Positions 44,271 through 50,867 of a stretch of DNA of 64,000 nt are shown here, piece by piece; the first letter of the stretch is position 1, and each line of letters starts with the position of its first letter. The stretch lies in NCBI RefSeq assembly GCF_900142575.1, contig NZ_FRBI01000008.1, positions 124,001 through 188,000 on the forward strand. The letters run 5' to 3'. Made by a program: the position numbers and the translations under genes. The DNA comes from Actinacidiphila paucisporea (lineage in GTDB: Bacteria > Actinomycetota > Actinomycetes > Streptomycetales > Streptomycetaceae). Under the pieces are notes generated by a model that did not search any database, had not been told where the DNA came from, and worked only from the letters and a program-made list of their open reading frames with translations.

Positions 44271-44638
44271 CCCTGGTCCTCGCCCGCCAGCCACTGCGTG
44301 AGGACCGCGGCCTGGCTGTGGTCTACGTCCTTGGTGGCCGTCAGCAGTGTCAGCCGCCGGCCGTCGCCCGCGAGGCCGCGCAGGTGCTCGGCGGCCGCCT
44401 GGTGCTCCGCGTCGCGCAGTTCGGCGCGGTAGCGGCGGCGGAATTCGGCGAAGCGGTCCGGCTCGTGGCCGTACCAGCGGCGCAGGTCCGTCGAGGGGGC
44501 GACGTCCCGCAGCCACTCGTCCAGGTGCGCGTCCTGCTTGCGCAGGCCCCGCGGCCAGACCCGGTCCACGAGCACCCGCGTACCGTCTCCGGGCGCGGCC
44601 TCCTCGTAGACTCGGCGGTAGGTGATCGACTCGGCCAT
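44267..44638 (-). CDS. DUF488 family protein
   Basis: A 123-residue cytosolic protein with the DUF488 hallmarks VLVDRVWPRGLRKQDAHLDE and DLRRWYGHEPDRFAEFRRRY, and a final LTLLTATKDVDHSQAAVL. The family is widespread and lacks a firm function. The ATG at 44638 is the family start. It is divergent from the uracil-DNA glycosylase-type gene and convergent with the phosphatase gene. Confidence 0.9.
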   Translation of the reverse strand: MAESITYRRVYEEAAPGDGTRVLVDRVWPRGLRKQDAHLDEWLRDVAPSTDLRRWYGHEPDRFAEFRRRYRAELRDAEHQAAAEHLRGLAGDGRRLTLLTATKDVDHSQAAVLTQWLAGEDQG

Positions 44639-44735
44639 GGCGGCACCTCTCCCTGACGGGTCGCCCCCGGCGGGTCCCATTTCACCGGCGGTCCACGCCG
44701 CCGGTCCGGTACGCGGGGGAGAGGCGGAGGAGGCC

Positions 44736-45518
44736 ATGGCAGCCGGTACGCCGGGCGCCGTCCCGGATGACCCGGACGCCCCGGGCTTTCCCGCGGCGGC
44801 CGCCGCCCGGGCCGGCTCGGTGCCCGCGCTGGACGGCGCGCTGACCACCTGCCGGGCCTGCCCGCGGCTGGTCGCCTGGCGCGAGGAGGCCGGCCGGGTC
44901 AAGCGGCGGGCGTACGCCGACTGGACGTACTGGGCCAGGCCCGTGCCCGGGTTCGGCCCGCAGGACGCCCCGCTGGCGATCGTCGGGCTCGCCCCCGCCG
45001 CGCACGGCGGCAACCGCACCGGGCGGATGTTCACCGGCGACCCGTCGGGCGACGTGCTCTACGCCGCCCTGCACGCGGTGGGCCTGGCCTCCCGGCCCAC
45101 CGCCGCGGACCGCGGCGACGGCCTCGAACTGTTCGGCGTACGCGTCACCGGCCCCGTGCACTGCGCCCCGCCGGACAACCGGCCCACCACCGCGGAACGC
45201 GACACCTGCCGCCCCTGGCTGGCCCGCGAGTTCCAGCTGCTGCGCCCGACGCTGCGGGCCGCCGTCGTGCTCGGCGGCTTCGGCTGGCAGGCGCTGCTGC
45301 CGGTGCTGCGCGACGCCGGCTGGCAACTGCCGCGGCCTCAACCGGCGTTCGGGCACGCCGCCCATGTGCTGCTGCACGACGCCGGCGGCGAGCTGCACCT
45401 CTTCGGCAGCTACCACCCGAGTCAGCGCAATGTCTCGACCCGCACGCTGACCCCCGCGATGCTCCGCGACGTGTTGCGCACCGCGGGCCGAACAGCAGGT
45501 CTGCCGGTGCGCGACTGA
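44736..45518 (+). CDS. Uracil-DNA glycosylase, family 5-like (UdgB)
   Basis: DNA repair enzyme of 260 residues that removes deaminated bases. CRACPRLVAWREEAGRVKRR carries two of the cysteines of an iron-sulphur cluster. The active-site motif is GLAPAAHGGNRTGRMFTGD, where Ala replaces the catalytic Asp/Glu of other families as in family 5. GSYHPSQRNVSTRTLTPAML is the C-terminal His motif, and two further Cys (CAPPDNRPTTAERDTC) fit the cluster. The ATG at 44736 follows GGAGG; an upstream in-frame start at 44622 is less likely. Confidence 0.9.
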   Translation: MAAGTPGAVPDDPDAPGFPAAAAARAGSVPALDGALTTCRACPRLVAWREEAGRVKRRAYADWTYWARPVPGFGPQDAPLAIVGLAPAAHGGNRTGRMFTGDPSGDVLYAALHAVGLASRPTAADRGDGLELFGVRVTGPVHCAPPDNRPTTAERDTCRPWLAREFQLLRPTLRAAVVLGGFGWQALLPVLRDAGWQLPRPQPAFGHAAHVLLHDAGGELHLFGSYHPSQRNVSTRTLTPAMLRDVLRTAGRTAGLPVRD

Positions 45519-45696: not shown

Positions 45697-48600
45697 ATGG
45701 CGCATCAGTCGCAACCGTCGGCCCACCCCTCCCGGCGGACCGTCGTCGCCAGCGGCTCGACCCTGCTGGCCGGATTCGGACTGGCCGCCGTCCCGGGAGT
45801 GAGCGCCGCCGCGGACCCCGGCGACCGGCCGGCCGGGCCCGCGGTGCCGGGTGGACCGGCCGCGCCCGGCGAACTGGCCGCCTACCGACCGGTCGAGGTC
45901 TCCTCGACCGACTACGCGCCCACCCCGGCCGCGTTCGCCGTCGACACGGTCAACTCACCCGGCGTGCGCGGCACCGGATGGCGGGCGGCGGACGGCGACC
46001 CCCAGTGGATCTCCGTCGACCTGCAGGCCGACTGCCAGGTCACCGCGATCCGGCTCACCTTCGAAGGCGAAGCGCACGACCCGGTCTTCACCAGGCCCGC
46101 CTCGGGGAACTGGTCCGACGGCACGACAGGGCAGGAGATCCTGTCCAGTTACGCCGTCGACTTCGTCGTCGAGACCTCCCGCGACCGGCGCTCGTGGACC
46201 AGCGTCCACCGCACCACCGCCGGCACCGGCGGCGTCGTGGACATCGCCCTCGACCAGCCGGTCGTCGCCCGCTGGGTGCGGATGACCTCGCGCAAGCGGT
46301 CGAACCCCAACCCGCTGGGGCTCAACGGCTTCGAGGTCTACGGCACCCCGCCCGCCCACCGGGCCGTCGCCACCGGCTGGACCGACTGGGGCCGCCACGA
46401 CCACCGGCCGCCCGCGCTGACCGTCGCCGCCGACGGGACCGTGCCGCTGGAGTCCGGCTGGACGCTGACCATGGACGACTGGGCCGGCGGCGAGGGCGCG
46501 GACCTGTCGCGTACCACCGTCGACACCAGCGGCTGGCTGCCCGCGACCGTACCCGGCACCGTGCTGGCGTCCCTGGTCGACCAGGGCAAGCTGCCCGACC
46601 CGGTCGCGGGCCTGAACAACCTGCACATCCCCGAGGCGCTGTCGCGCCACTCCTGGTGGTACAAGCGGGACTTCGAGCTGCCGAGCGGCCTGCGCACCGG
46701 CGCCGGCCGCCGGGTCTGGCTGGAGTTCGACGGGGTCAACCACCAGGCCGACATCTGGCTCAACGGCCGGCACGTCGGCGGGCTGACCTACCCCTTCGCC
46801 CGCTCGGCCCACGAGGTCACCGGCCTGCTGGCGGCCGGCGGCAACGGGCTCGCCGTGAAGATCACGCCGATGCCGATCCCCGGCAGCCCCGGCGACAAGG
46901 GGCCCGCGGGGGAGTCCTGGGTGGACGCGGGCGCCGGGCAGATGAACCTCAACTCGCCCACCTACCTGGCCGTCTCCGGCTGGGACTGGATGCCGGCGGT
47001 GCGGGACCGGGTCTCCGGGATCTGGAACCACGTCAGGCTCCGCTCCACCGGCGACGTCCTGATCGGCGACCCGCGGGTGGACACCGTACTGCCCGGTCTG
47101 CCCGACACCTCCGTCGCGGAGCTGACCCTCACCGTGCCGGTGCGCAACGCCGCGGACGCCGACCGCACCGCGACGGTCTCGGCCTCCTTCGGCGACGTCC
47201 ACGTCTCCCGTACGGTCACCGTCCCCGCCGGGCAGAGCCTCGACGTCACCTTCGCCCCCGACGCCTTCAGCCGGCTGCGGCTGCGCGACCCCGAGCTGTG
47301 GTGGCCCAACGGGCTCGGCGACGCCGTCCTGCACGACCTCGCCACGACGGTCTCCGTCGGCGGCACCGTGAGCGACCGGCGCACCACCCGCTTCGGCATC
47401 CGCCAGTTCGGCTACGAGTACGCGGTGCCGCTGCCCTTCACCGGCGGCGGCGACGCCTGCACCCAGTCGGTGGACGTCGGCCCGCGGACCGCCCGCCACG
47501 TGCGGATCCACTGCCTGACCAGGGCGACCAACTGGGGCGCCTCACTGTGGACGGTCGCTGTCGTGGACAGCTCGCAGCCGTCCGTGGACCTCGCGCTGCA
47601 CGCGTCCGCGACCTCCTCCACCGTGGACGAGGACGACCACGGACCCGGCAACGCCACCGACGGCGACCCCGCCACCCGCTGGTCCTCCGCCTTCCAGGAC
47701 GACCAGTGGCTCCAGCTGGACCTGGGGTCCGTCCGCTCCTTCGACCGGGTCGACCTCACCTGGGAGCAGGCGTACGCCAAGACGTACGTGGTGCAGGTCT
47801 CCACCGACGGCTCGGCCTGGACGGACGCCGCGGCGGTGGACAACTCCGCCGTGCCGCTGCCCTTCAACGGCGGTGACGCGAGCCTGCAGACGGAGGAGTT
47901 CGGCGCCCGGACGGCCCGCTACGTGCGGATCGACTGCGGTGTGCGGCAGACCAGTTGGGGCAACTCGCTGTGGTCCCTCTCGGTGGTCGACAGCAACCGC
48001 CCCGGCACCGACCTGGCCCTGCACCGCGGTGTCACCGCCTCCAGCGAGGACCCGTCCAACCCGGCGGCCAACGCCACCGACGGCGATCCGAACTCCCGCT
48101 GGTCGTCCCTCTACGCCGACCACCAGTGGATCCAGGTCGACCTCGGCTCGCCGCAGGCCTTCGACCGGGTGGTGATCCTCTGGGAGGCCGCCTACCCCAA
48201 GACCTACACCATCCAGGTCTCGGACGACGGCCAGGCCTGGACGGACGTGAAGTCCGTGAAGAATTCACCCGACCCGCTGCGCATCAGCGTCAACGGCGTA
48301 CGGGTGCTGTGCCGCGGCGGCAACTGGGGCTGGGACGAACTGCTGCGCCGGATGCCCGCGGAGCGGATGGACGCGGCCGTGCGCATGCACCGCGACATGA
48401 ACTTCACCATGATCCGCAACTGGGTCGGCAGCAGCGACCGCGAGGAGTTCTTCGCCAGCTGCGACGAGCACGGCATCCTCGTGTGGAACGACTTCCCGAA
48501 CGCCTGGGGCATGGACCCGCCGGACCACGACGCCTACAACGCCCTCGCCCGCGACACCGTGCTGCGCTACCGCAGCCACCCCTGCGTGGTGGTCTGGTGC

Positions 48601-49791
48601 GGTGCCAACGAGGGCAACCCGCCCAAGGCGATCGACGACGGCATGCGCGACGCCGTGCGGTCCCAGGCCCCCGGCATCCTCTACCAGAACAACTCGGCCG
48701 GCGGCGTCATCACCGGCGGCGGCCCGTACAACTGGATCGAGCCCGAGCGCTACTACGACCCGGCGTCGTACGGCAGCAACAGCTTCGGCTTCCACACCGA
48801 GATCGGCATGCCGGTGGTCTCCACCGCCGAGAGCATGCGCAACCTCGTCGGCGACAGCCCCGAGTGGCCGATCGGCGGCGCCTGGTACTACCACGACTGG
48901 AGCGAACGCGGGAATCAGGCCCCGCAGAACTACAAGGCCGCGATCGAGGCCAGGCTCGGCACCGCACGGGACCTGGACGACTTCGCGCGCAAGGCGCAGT
49001 TCGTCAACTACGAGAACACCCGCAGCATGTTCGAGGCGTGGAACGCCCATCTGTGGGACGACGCCAGCGGCCTGATGCTGTGGATGTCGCACCCCGCCTG
49101 GCACAGCACCGTGTGGCAGACCTACGACTACGACTTCGACGTCAACGGGACGTACTACGGGGCCAGGTCGGCCTGCGAGCCCTTGCACGTCCAGGCCGAC
49201 CCGGTGACCTGGCAGGTCATCGCGGTCAACCACACCGCGAGCGAGCTGCGCGGCGCCCAGGTCACCGCCCGGGCCTACGACCTCGCCGGCCGCCCGCTCG
49301 GCGCCGCCCGCACCGCCCGGGTGGACGTCGGCTCCGCCGCCACAGCCGAGGCCTTCACCGCCGGGTGGACCGGCGACCTGCCCGACCTGCACCTTCTGCG
49401 GCTGGTCCTGGCGGACGGACGGGGCCGCGAGCTGTCCCGCAACACCTACTGGCGCTACCGCACCCCCGCCGCCATGACCGCGCTCAGCACCGCCCGGCAG
49501 GTCCGCACCTCGGCCACGATCGGCCGGGTCACCGCCGACGGTTCGCGCCGCGGGCTGACCGCGACCGTACGCAACCGGGGGTCGGCCGTCGCCGCGATGG
49601 TCCGGCTGTCGCTGCTCGACCAGCACACCGGCGAGCGGGTGCTGCCGACGCTCTACGGCGACAACTACCTGTGGCTGCTCCCCGGCGAGTCCCGTACGGT
49701 CCCGCTGTCCTGGCCCGCGCACGCCCTGCCCTCGGGCCGGCCCGAGCTGCGGGTGGAGGGCTACAACAGCCCGGCGGTCACCGCGAGGTGA
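45697..49791 (+). CDS. Exported GH2 exo-beta-mannosidase/glucosaminidase-type enzyme with internal CBM32 insert
   Basis: Secreted 1364-residue glycosidase. The N-terminus has a Tat signal (SRRTVVASGSTLLAGFGLAA). An F5/8-type C domain (about 60-215) comes first. The GH2 sugar-binding domain contains SRHSWWYKRDFELPSG and the Ig-like domain ends at RFGIRQFGYEY. About 280 residues of CBM32-like sequence then interrupt the protein before RISVNGVRVLCRGGNWGWDE, where the GH2 barrel resumes. Catalytic Glu972 lies in VVWCGANEGNPP and the likely nucleophile Glu1035 in SFGFHTEIGMPV. A C-terminal beta domain follows. The substrate class (beta-mannoside or beta-glucosaminide) is uncertain. Shared LacI-type operators link it to the GH92 genes. 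Confidence 0.88.
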   Translation: MAHQSQPSAHPSRRTVVASGSTLLAGFGLAAVPGVSAAADPGDRPAGPAVPGGPAAPGELAAYRPVEVSSTDYAPTPAAFAVDTVNSPGVRGTGWRAADGDPQWISVDLQADCQVTAIRLTFEGEAHDPVFTRPASGNWSDGTTGQEILSSYAVDFVVETSRDRRSWTSVHRTTAGTGGVVDIALDQPVVARWVRMTSRKRSNPNPLGLNGFEVYGTPPAHRAVATGWTDWGRHDHRPPALTVAADGTVPLESGWTLTMDDWAGGEGADLSRTTVDTSGWLPATVPGTVLASLVDQGKLPDPVAGLNNLHIPEALSRHSWWYKRDFELPSGLRTGAGRRVWLEFDGVNHQADIWLNGRHVGGLTYPFARSAHEVTGLLAAGGNGLAVKITPMPIPGSPGDKGPAGESWVDAGAGQMNLNSPTYLAVSGWDWMPAVRDRVSGIWNHVRLRSTGDVLIGDPRVDTVLPGLPDTSVAELTLTVPVRNAADADRTATVSASFGDVHVSRTVTVPAGQSLDVTFAPDAFSRLRLRDPELWWPNGLGDAVLHDLATTVSVGGTVSDRRTTRFGIRQFGYEYAVPLPFTGGGDACTQSVDVGPRTARHVRIHCLTRATNWGASLWTVAVVDSSQPSVDLALHASATSSTVDEDDHGPGNATDGDPATRWSSAFQDDQWLQLDLGSVRSFDRVDLTWEQAYAKTYVVQVSTDGSAWTDAAAVDNSAVPLPFNGGDASLQTEEFGARTARYVRIDCGVRQTSWGNSLWSLSVVDSNRPGTDLALHRGVTASSEDPSNPAANATDGDPNSRWSSLYADHQWIQVDLGSPQAFDRVVILWEAAYPKTYTIQVSDDGQAWTDVKSVKNSPDPLRISVNGVRVLCRGGNWGWDELLRRMPAERMDAAVRMHRDMNFTMIRNWVGSSDREEFFASCDEHGILVWNDFPNAWGMDPPDHDAYNALARDTVLRYRSHPCVVVWCGANEGNPPKAIDDGMRDAVRSQAPGILYQNNSAGGVITGGGPYNWIEPERYYDPASYGSNSFGFHTEIGMPVVSTAESMRNLVGDSPEWPIGGAWYYHDWSERGNQAPQNYKAAIEARLGTARDLDDFARKAQFVNYENTRSMFEAWNAHLWDDASGLMLWMSHPAWHSTVWQTYDYDFDVNGTYYGARSACEPLHVQADPVTWQVIAVNHTASELRGAQVTARAYDLAGRPLGAARTARVDVGSAATAEAFTAGWTGDLPDLHLLRLVLADGRGRELSRNTYWRYRTPAAMTALSTARQVRTSATIGRVTADGSRRGLTATVRNRGSAVAAMVRLSLLDQHTGERVLPTLYGDNYLWLLPGESRTVPLSWPAHALPSGRPELRVEGYNSPAVTAR

Positions 49792-49847
49792 GCCGGCGGC
49801 GGACCGGCGTTCTCGTTATCGCGGGGCGCCGGTCCGGTCTCCTTGGC

Positions 49848-50867
49848 ATGAGGCACGCAACGACACGCAGGGGCCACCAGCGACGGCACCGGGTCCGCCC
49901 CGCCTGGCCGCGGGCCGCGGCGGCGCTCGCGGCGGTGGCCGCCGTCGCGCTCGTCGCCTGGCTGGCGGCACCGGGCGACGCCGGACCGGAAGGCGGCGGC
50001 CCGGCCGCCGCCCGGCCGGCCGCGAGCAGTACGCCGGCTGCTCCCGCCACCGCACCGGCCCCGGCCGTGTCCTCGGCCACGGCCACGGCCGCGTCGGCGG
50101 CCGCGCGGCCGCCGACGCCCGGCCGCCGGGCCACCCCTGCCGAGCAGGCGGCGCCGCAGAAGACCGCGGCGCCGCCGCGGAAGCAGTCCGCGCCCGGCGG
50201 GCAGCGCAGCATCGTCATCGTCAACCACACTTCGCAGACGGTCTGGGCCGTGGCCACCGGCACTGCCGCGTACCCCAAGGGCCGCCGGCTGGCCCCGGGC
50301 GCCAGCACCTCGCTGCTGGTCGGCACCTCCTGGGGCGGCCGGATATGGGGCCGCACCGGCTGCACCGGCGACGCCTCGGGCCACTGCCTGACCGGCGACT
50401 GCACCACCACCTGCGGCGGCCCCGTCACCCCCACCACACTCGGCGAATTCACCTTCGACGCCTTCGACGGCATGGACTTCTACGACGTGAGCATGGTCGA
50501 CGGGTCCAACCTGCCGATGTACATCAACATCTCCCACACCGCCAGCACCGACCCGCTCACCCCCACCGGCTGCTACCGCGGCGCCTGCACCCACCCGGTC
50601 GCCTGCCCCGCCGCCATGCGGGCCACCGCCGCCGGCGGCCAGGTCATCGGCTGCAAGCCGCCCTGCGCGGCCTTCGGGGGTGACACCTACTGCTGCCGCG
50701 GCGCCTGGTCCGGACGCGAGAACTGCCTCCCGGCGAAGTGGCCGGTCGACTACACCCAGGTCTTCAAGAAGGCCGAGCCCTACGCCTACTCGTACGCCTT
50801 CGACGACGGGGCCACCATGGCCTGCAAGGGCGCCTGCTACTACCGGGTGACCTTCGGTACGGGCTGA
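49848..50867 (+). CDS. Thaumatin-like protein, exported or membrane-anchored
   Basis: A 339-residue protein. A basic N-terminus precedes a membrane helix (AAALAAVAAVALVAWLAAPG), followed by a Pro/Ala/Thr-rich linker to about residue 118. The rest is a thaumatin-type domain: IVIVNHTSQTVWAVATGT, SWGGRIWGRTGC, CLTGDCTTTCGG and TLGEFTFDAFDGMDFYDVSM (the family's acidic cleft region), then many cysteines that could form the disulphides. Plant thaumatin-like proteins can bind or hydrolyse beta-1,3-glucan and inhibit fungi; that role here is inference. The ATG has only a weak ribosome-binding site. Confidence 0.87.
   Translation: MRHATTRRGHQRRHRVRPAWPRAAAALAAVAAVALVAWLAAPGDAGPEGGGPAAARPAASSTPAAPATAPAPAVSSATATAASAAARPPTPGRRATPAEQAAPQKTAAPPRKQSAPGGQRSIVIVNHTSQTVWAVATGTAAYPKGRRLAPGASTSLLVGTSWGGRIWGRTGCTGDASGHCLTGDCTTTCGGPVTPTTLGEFTFDAFDGMDFYDVSMVDGSNLPMYINISHTASTDPLTPTGCYRGACTHPVACPAAMRATAAGGQVIGCKPPCAAFGGDTYCCRGAWSGRENCLPAKWPVDYTQVFKKAEPYAYSYAFDDGATMACKGACYYRVTFGTG

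Follow-up and report, generated by a model that had tools for sequence, protein, structure and literature searches.

Putative Tandem of Circularly Permuted CBM32 Modules within the Chain of a GH2 Enzyme of Actinacidiphila paucisporea

Introduction

The DNA analysed here, a stretch of 64,000 nucleotides from Actinacidiphila paucisporea (the window), encodes a GH2 enzyme whose chain is interrupted by repeated CBM32 (F5/8 type C) sequence. An earlier sequence-only reading described about 280 extra residues between the motifs FGIRQFGYEY and RISVNGVRVL, arranged as a C-terminal half, a full unit and an N-terminal half of the module. The locus raises the questions of which parts of this insert make up a module, how the halves pair, and how such a sequence came to lie within a catalytic chain.

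Layout of the Gene and Position of the Insert

The gene and its protein were divided into the following features.

45697..49791, + strand: unbroken ORF for a GH2 enzyme of 1364 aa (ORF and translation; Pfam Glyco_hydro_2_N2, Glyco_hydro_2 and Ig_GlcNase)
45847..46350, + strand: N-terminal CBM32-like domain, aa 51-218 (one of four Pfam F5_F8_type_C stretches)
46369..47421, + strand: GH2 jelly-roll and Ig-like sandwich domains, aa 225-575 (Pfam; structural match to CsxA 2vzt)
47422..47847, + strand: putative permuted CBM32 module A, aa 576-717, with the C half at 47422-47574 and the N half at about 47584-47847 (repeat; unit profile; structural rows)
47848..48276, + strand: putative permuted CBM32 module B, aa 718-860, with the C half at 47848-48000 and the N half at about 48010-48276 (unit profile; 6eon match to the model)
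48277..49788, + strand: GH2 TIM barrel and C-terminal Ig-like domains, aa 861-1364 (alignments to CsxA and beta-mannosidases)

The insert comprised 285 residues, from A576 (nt 47422) to P860 (nt 48276), between flanks starting at aa 566 (FGIRQFGYEY) and aa 862 (RISVNGVRVL), in agreement with the roughly 280 residues estimated earlier. Its repeats start with VPLPFTGGGD at aa 577 (nt 47425) and VPLPFNGGD at aa 719 (nt 47851), and this distance of 142 aa, or 426 nt, reproduces the proposed period; a repeat finder returned spacings of 420, 423 and 426. The two units, A and B, were 58.7% identical over 143 aa of protein (BLAST E 1.9e-57) and 69.5% identical across 420 aligned bases of DNA, and the order along the insert was C half, N half, C half, N half (C1, N2, C2 and N3). 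The flanks, which had been said to be contiguous in ordinary GH2 enzymes, belong together, since only 11-12 residues lie between them in two close orthologues, the insert-less L214 and L215, where they are joined by EPPTSSGDGAVP and EPPSSGGGTVP.

The N-terminus of the protein was judged by eye to be twin-arginine-like (SRRTVVASGSTLLAGFG). The whole protein matched Pfam PF00754 (F5_F8_type_C) with 220.3 bits, above the curated cut-off of 28.2 (E 8.5e-66), in four stretches that included the N-terminal domain. When this N-terminal domain was compared with a profile in C-N phase, it aligned with positions 56-118 and then 117-138, with a third piece, in the C half, below significance; the domain apparently has the usual N-to-C order.

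Enzyme Type

Over the sandwich, barrel and Ig domains, the protein resembles CsxA (PDB 2vzs and others), which has no match to the insert; in the long model of the enzyme, the nearest solved GH2 was CsxA (2vzt), with Z 30.5 over 772 residues, 3.6 A and 27% identity. The two differ at the acid/base motif, which reads N-E (GANEG) in the window and S-D (G-S-D-F) in 2vzs, while 2vzo reads S-E. The active site of the window's enzyme was assigned to the acid/base E972 in GANEG, the nucleophile E1035 in FHTE and Trp909 in IRNWVG, and these three positions were invariant in 52 aligned sequences, the window's included. When aligned with beta-mannosidases, IRNWVG corresponds to RVWGGG of 6ddt and RMWGGG of 6byg, and GANE to GNNE.

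According to PMC12243196, S-D replaces N-E in GH2_16 (CsxA), with a Glu near C2, and the beta-mannosidases of GH2_13 and GH2_17 carry N-E together with a Trp near C2/C3. The window's enzyme, with N-E and Trp909, lacks the motif of the GH2_16 exo-beta-D-glucosaminidases and has that of the GH2_13/GH2_17 beta-mannosidases, with which it shares both the N-E motif and the Trp. Its active site is therefore likely of the beta-mannosidase type, even though the GH2 enzyme of known structure closest to it, CsxA, is a glucosaminidase. The enzyme may perhaps be of the GH2_17 kind; the same paper describes GH2_17 as endo-beta-mannosidases and gives three characterised members, all from plants and none from the bacterial majority (PMC12243196).

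Copy Number in Relatives

A query made of the insert and its flanks, which favours insert-bearing genes, was used first, and the best 80 of 158 relatives were kept. All 80 carried the full insert; they came mostly from Streptomyces and Actinacidiphila, and also from Nonomuraea, Planotetraspora, Streptosporangium and Actinomadura. An insert-free query, the TIM barrel and Ig part of 504 aa, was then applied to 394 genomes of the window's own family, the first family, which was taken as Streptomycetaceae from the named relatives. Among the matches listed, beyond which only the weakest fall, 68 places gave a near-complete match at an identity of at least 57.9%; this count leaves out partial TIM barrel matches (e.g., G486, G582, G346, G323 and G384) and homologues below 50% identity. 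Again among the matches listed, 54 of the 68 places held a two-unit gene in one frame from sandwich to barrel and 12 a one-unit gene, and the other two were a two-unit gene with a frame break near query aa 769 (L199, in G358) and a gene cut by a contig end with N-C-N visible (L163). In one of the 54 two-unit genes, that of G532, the match contains a TGA.

The second family was taken as Streptosporangiaceae, because L166 and L210 coincide with the named L069 and L064 in the core tree described below. In 200 of its genomes, at E 1e-60, 16 places were found, of which 11 held two units, three held one and two held none. In an evenly spread sample of 394 genomes from the class, the same threshold gave matches in 10, nine of the first family (the window's included) and one of the second. 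The insert is thus widespread in at least two actinobacterial families.

In the parsed genes holding both flanks, sandwich and barrel were 283-288 aa apart with C-N-C-N, 144-147 aa with C-N and 6-22 aa without a unit, and no other distance was seen in them. The catalytic motifs of the no-unit L214 and L215 were intact. The insert was also absent from six more distant homologues, with 31-37% identity in the barrel. The sequence-only reading had held that orthologues carrying the insert as a normal fixed family domain would refute it. The insert is not confined to this gene, and fixation largely holds, given the two-unit majorities (54/68 and 11/16), and is incomplete, since one-unit and no-unit genes exist; the module itself is a permuted and not a normal one.

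Different states also occur side by side. Within the first family, six genomes (G331, G340, G381, G390, G393 and G405) contained both a two-unit and a one-unit gene, and in G422 a one-unit gene lies beside the gene cut by a contig end. The genomes of L214 (G1096) and L215 (G1131) encode, besides the no-unit gene (75% and 74% identity in the barrel), a separate GH2 with two units that belongs to the other clade (L221 and L220, respectively). The one-unit GH2 genes L154 (G381) and L155 (G390) lie in open frames of 2210 and 2343 aa, in which the N-terminal CBM32 is preceded by some 1000 or more additional residues. A 3629-bp contig labelled as a Mucilaginibacter MAG (L015) carried this actinobacterial two-unit GH2 at 79% identity and looks misbinned. 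None of the 60 pattern-matching stretches in a viral collection encoded a relative.

As regards the surroundings of the gene, a thaumatin-family gene (49788-50867, + strand; Pfam PF00314, E 2.1e-49) follows immediately, its GTG start overlapping the GH2 stop codon. Within the few kb of flank available at each of the 80 loci, such a gene adjoined the GH2 gene in only two (L001 and L002), with a piece in L068. Upstream lies a gene of the uracil-DNA glycosylase family (44622-45515, + strand; Pfam PF03167), with no evident link to glycans. The gene neighbourhood gives no functional hint. Elsewhere in the same genome, a 386-aa frame (G000:C60:60500-61348; L082, L206) resembles only the C-terminal part of the GH2 protein, at 47%, and pieces of this part were also seen in several relatives (e.g., G301, G346, G411 and G419).

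Evidence for a Circularly Permuted CBM32

The nature of the unit was indicated by the one-unit genes. The 12 that were aligned contain only a C half followed by an N half, with the conserved CBM32 positions, and since nothing else is present, only a permuted domain can be formed there. By extension, the window would hold two whole permuted modules. The sequence-only reading was right about the circular permutation and the tandem, while its set of modules (half, full, half) was not the best reading: judging from these alignments, that description is a matter of register, and the evolutionary unit is a whole permuted CBM32 of about 143 aa, present twice.

Profile comparisons agreed with this. 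A small profile built from seven units, the window's two and five single ones, matched the ordinary CBM32 4zxe in exchanged order, profile positions 53-140 at chain positions 5-93 and then 7-48 at 95-136. A large profile of 146 units, the window's own included, covered the insert as two complete units, aa 576-717 (positions 1-142) and aa 718-860 (positions 1-145). The single-unit L146 reached 139.6 bits against PF00754, its N-terminal domain counted in. The canonical N-to-C order within one contiguous unit was not found in the insert unit, which marks it as a permuted derivative, and the halves stand, by sequence, in swapped order within the same family, as is expected of a circularly permuted CBM. 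In 20 other CBM32-bearing loci, some of them overlapping and with a C half often too weak to call, the order was N then C wherever both halves were recognised. One frame, that of L106, starts with a C half at the point where its locus is cut.

The closest solved CBM by sequence was the CBM32 of a glucanase/chitosanase (PDB 4zxe, 2rv9 and 4zz8), with which both halves align (E 6.2e-31 for the unit profile). That domain runs N then C, whereas the window has C then N, inside the GH2 chain. This resemblance offers no more than a hint as to the ligands of the insert.

A link by circular permutation between two calcium-dependent CBM families has been described (Montanier et al. 2010, as cited in PMC4444583). 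Circularly permuted CBMs are an already known kind; no report of a permuted CBM32, or of one inside a catalytic chain, was found in the open-licence literature, searched by titles and abstract openings. The families of the earlier pair, reportedly CBM36 and CBM60, likewise include circularly permuted CBMs but are other than the CBM32 of the window.

Evolution of the Insert

In 67 proteins, the A and B units of one protein were 50.7-71.8% identical (mean 60.3). The window's A unit shared on average 66.7% with other A units and its B unit 71.1% with other B units. As A and B are closer to units of the same type in other proteins than to each other, the duplication appears to be old, and by this measure the insert is an old family trait and not an artefact.

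A core tree was built from the GH2 core without the insert, with 52 rows in which two-unit genes were sampled (22 random plus the named ones); rooted between two paralogue clades, it required five changes among the three states. A first tree, which had long-branch outgroups and from which near-identical rows had been thinned first, required four. In the core tree, the two clades stood apart with a support of 99, the larger being mostly two-unit and the other mostly one-unit. Within the larger clade, the one-unit L160 fell in a clade of support 98, the one-unit L162 grouped with the two-unit L005 and L011 (support 94), and the no-unit L214 and L215 (support 99) stood beside the two-unit L212 and L213 (support 100). 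These placements point to losses, to one unit in L160 and L162 and to none in L214 and L215; in the first tree, with its distant outgroups, L160 and L162 were likewise found among two-unit genes.

In the one-unit clade, the two-unit L218, L220 and L221 formed a clade (support 100), and in a tree of the units their A and B units were sisters (support 90), which suggests an independent second duplication in this sister clade. In the larger clade, the A and B units were largely apart across species, one deep split having a support of only 15. Altogether, the trees support the loss of copies to one or none and two independent duplications.

The halves of the reduced genes were also compared with those of the 67 proteins. 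For the single unit of L162, 62 of 67 comparisons placed the C half nearer to C1 than to C2, and only three of 67 placed the N half nearer to N2 than to N3. Its composition, C1-like plus N3-like, is that expected of a deletion by recombination between the repeats. The halves of L160 were ambiguous, with C1 preferred over C2 in 33 of 67 and N2 over N3 in 51 of 67.

With regard to the source of the unit, many other proteins of the genus align without interruption to one unit, from query position 16-25 to about 140, through a C half and the next N half, and those encoded at C21, C55 and C62 in the window's own genome form arrays that start with an N half. The insert probably stems from a single period of such an ordinary array that was cut in mid-module.

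Pairing of the Halves and Alternative Readings

The reading preferred here, to which a probability of about 0.76 is given, is that two whole CBM32 modules, each circularly permuted, follow one another in the insert as [C1-N2][C2-N3], within a loop of a secreted GH2 enzyme of the beta-mannosidase type. The sequences contribute to this reading the order of the halves, the period, the single-copy relatives and the series of no, one or two copies, and the trees contribute the duplications and losses. The pairing itself is a prediction.

An AlphaFold model of the insert, built with 81 sequences, was mostly beta and reached pLDDT 88.4 and pTM 0.83, in a repeat setting where C1-N2 and N2-C2 contacts are hard to tell apart. 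Its best VIA-align match was 6eon (residues 643-779), which covered C2 plus N3, at model residues 163-284, with 121 residues aligned at 2.3 A and Z 13.2. This domain, of the galactanase BT0290, follows the same chain order as C2-N3 over the 121 residues and is apparently permuted; it shares 18% identity with the window's insert and belongs to a different enzyme. It was absent from a sequence search with E up to 10, and no paper on BT0290 was found in the open-licence literature. Of the 50 structural rows listed, 22 lay within module A (model 12-159) and 10 within module B (151-298), 18 spanned both modules, and none covered N2-C2 alone; only the first row has Z > 8, and the others, at Z < 8, may reflect common arrangements. 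Foldseek gave one match under 0.001, again 6eon, with an alignment of 434 columns at 20 A rmsd, so that the 2.3 A fit comes from VIA-align. Structure prediction, which had been proposed as a check on whether the halves fold together, modelled C2 with N3. On balance, the predicted structure favours C2-N3 pairing as permuted siblings.

A model of the long GH2 protein, built with 51 of 76 homologues thinned at 88%, had a mean pLDDT of 75.9 as a whole and a poor TIM barrel; it was dropped for judging the insert, since GH2 chains fill both of its match lists. The idea that a disulphide joins the conserved Cys residues of C1 and C2 was also given up, since the 12 aligned single-unit genes have Cys, Gly, Ala or Asp at this position.

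In the principal alternative, C1 and N3 would form one discontinuous permuted CBM32 on the GH2 loop, with N2-C2 nested at its tip as an ordinary CBM32. Such an arrangement has the appeal that both inserts would have their ends close together, and N2-C2 is indeed contiguous in the usual order, phmmer aligning it end to end with 2rv9. The one unit of L162 looks as if N2-C2 had been cleanly removed, an outcome that nesting predicts equally well as paired siblings. Co-variation of the halves, measured by a mirror-tree approach over 67 rows with the GH2 core as control, is compatible with nesting and did not separate the pairings: partial r was 0.35 for C1-N2, 0.34 for C2-N3, 0.28 for C1-N3 and 0.36 for N2-C2, with overlapping intervals. 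The structural comparison speaks against it, as the best match of the insert model spans C2-N3 and no row covers N2-C2 alone. Moreover, chains such as 4zxe should then lead the match lists, yet ordinary CBM32 chains were absent among the 50 rows listed by VIA-align and Foldseek; this absence is suggestive only, and a permuted insert would by itself make such chains hard to align with the model. The 18 rows spanning both modules and the poor Foldseek alignment of 6eon take a little weight from the permuted siblings and lend a little to nesting, which is nevertheless judged improbable.

A further, somewhat more doubtful idea is that the C-N-C-N chain can close in two registers, giving either two permuted siblings or a permuted module with an ordinary one nested inside it. 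If true, the insert would be a natural repeat of ambiguous domain register, possibly switching among members of the family, and the series of no, one or two copies would be available for its study.

It would be quite unexpected for only the middle N2-C2 to fold, with the outer halves as worn-down remnants serving as linkers. The contiguous phmmer match to a solved CBM32 does correspond to N2-C2, but this reading is already contradicted by the single-unit relatives, which consist of just a C half and an N half, and by the outer halves, which keep the invariant residues of the inner ones. Over the 81 sequences, R39, R45, W49 and W54 were invariant in C1, as were R180, R186, W190 and W195 in C2, and the block pLDDT was at least 88 in C1 and above 90 in N3, the outermost ends excepted.

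Finally, a recent origin of the insert, an error of assembly or its restriction to this strain, for which nothing speaks beyond the suggestion in the sequence-only reading, is already refuted and has a negligible chance of being right, given the insert in 80/80 kept loci (with a query biased by holding it), the two-unit majorities recovered across many genomes of two families with the insert-free query, and an A-B divergence within proteins that exceeds same-type divergence across proteins and marks an old duplication.

Proposed Architecture and Implications

In the preferred reading of permuted siblings, [C1-N2][C2-N3] would sit in the loop that leads from the Ig-like domain to the first TIM-barrel strand. 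In each module, a short link (VDSSQPSVDLALH in module A) would connect the usual ends of CBM32, and the chain would be open in the loop preceding the strand ...RTARYVRI. A fragment one period long, cut mid-module from an ordinary N-C-N-C array of CBM32, may have landed in the GH2 loop, and the landed module may later have been doubled by unequal recombination. The two modules, together with the N-terminal CBM32, could anchor the enzyme to a glycan that is insoluble or branched. Since some orthologues are without them, the modules appear to be accessory and dispensable for the GH2 fold.

For the annotation of such proteins, a domain call of the type "half, full, half" may mask whole permuted modules and should be read with caution. 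The family provides an unusually clean natural set of enzymes with no, one or two permuted CBM32 modules in one loop and with the catalytic motifs kept, so that evolution has, in effect, already run the deletion experiment. Two testable questions follow: how a CBM placed inside the catalytic chain affects the action on a polymer, and how a circular permutation originates and spreads, perhaps from an array period that was cut mid-module and duplicated at least twice.
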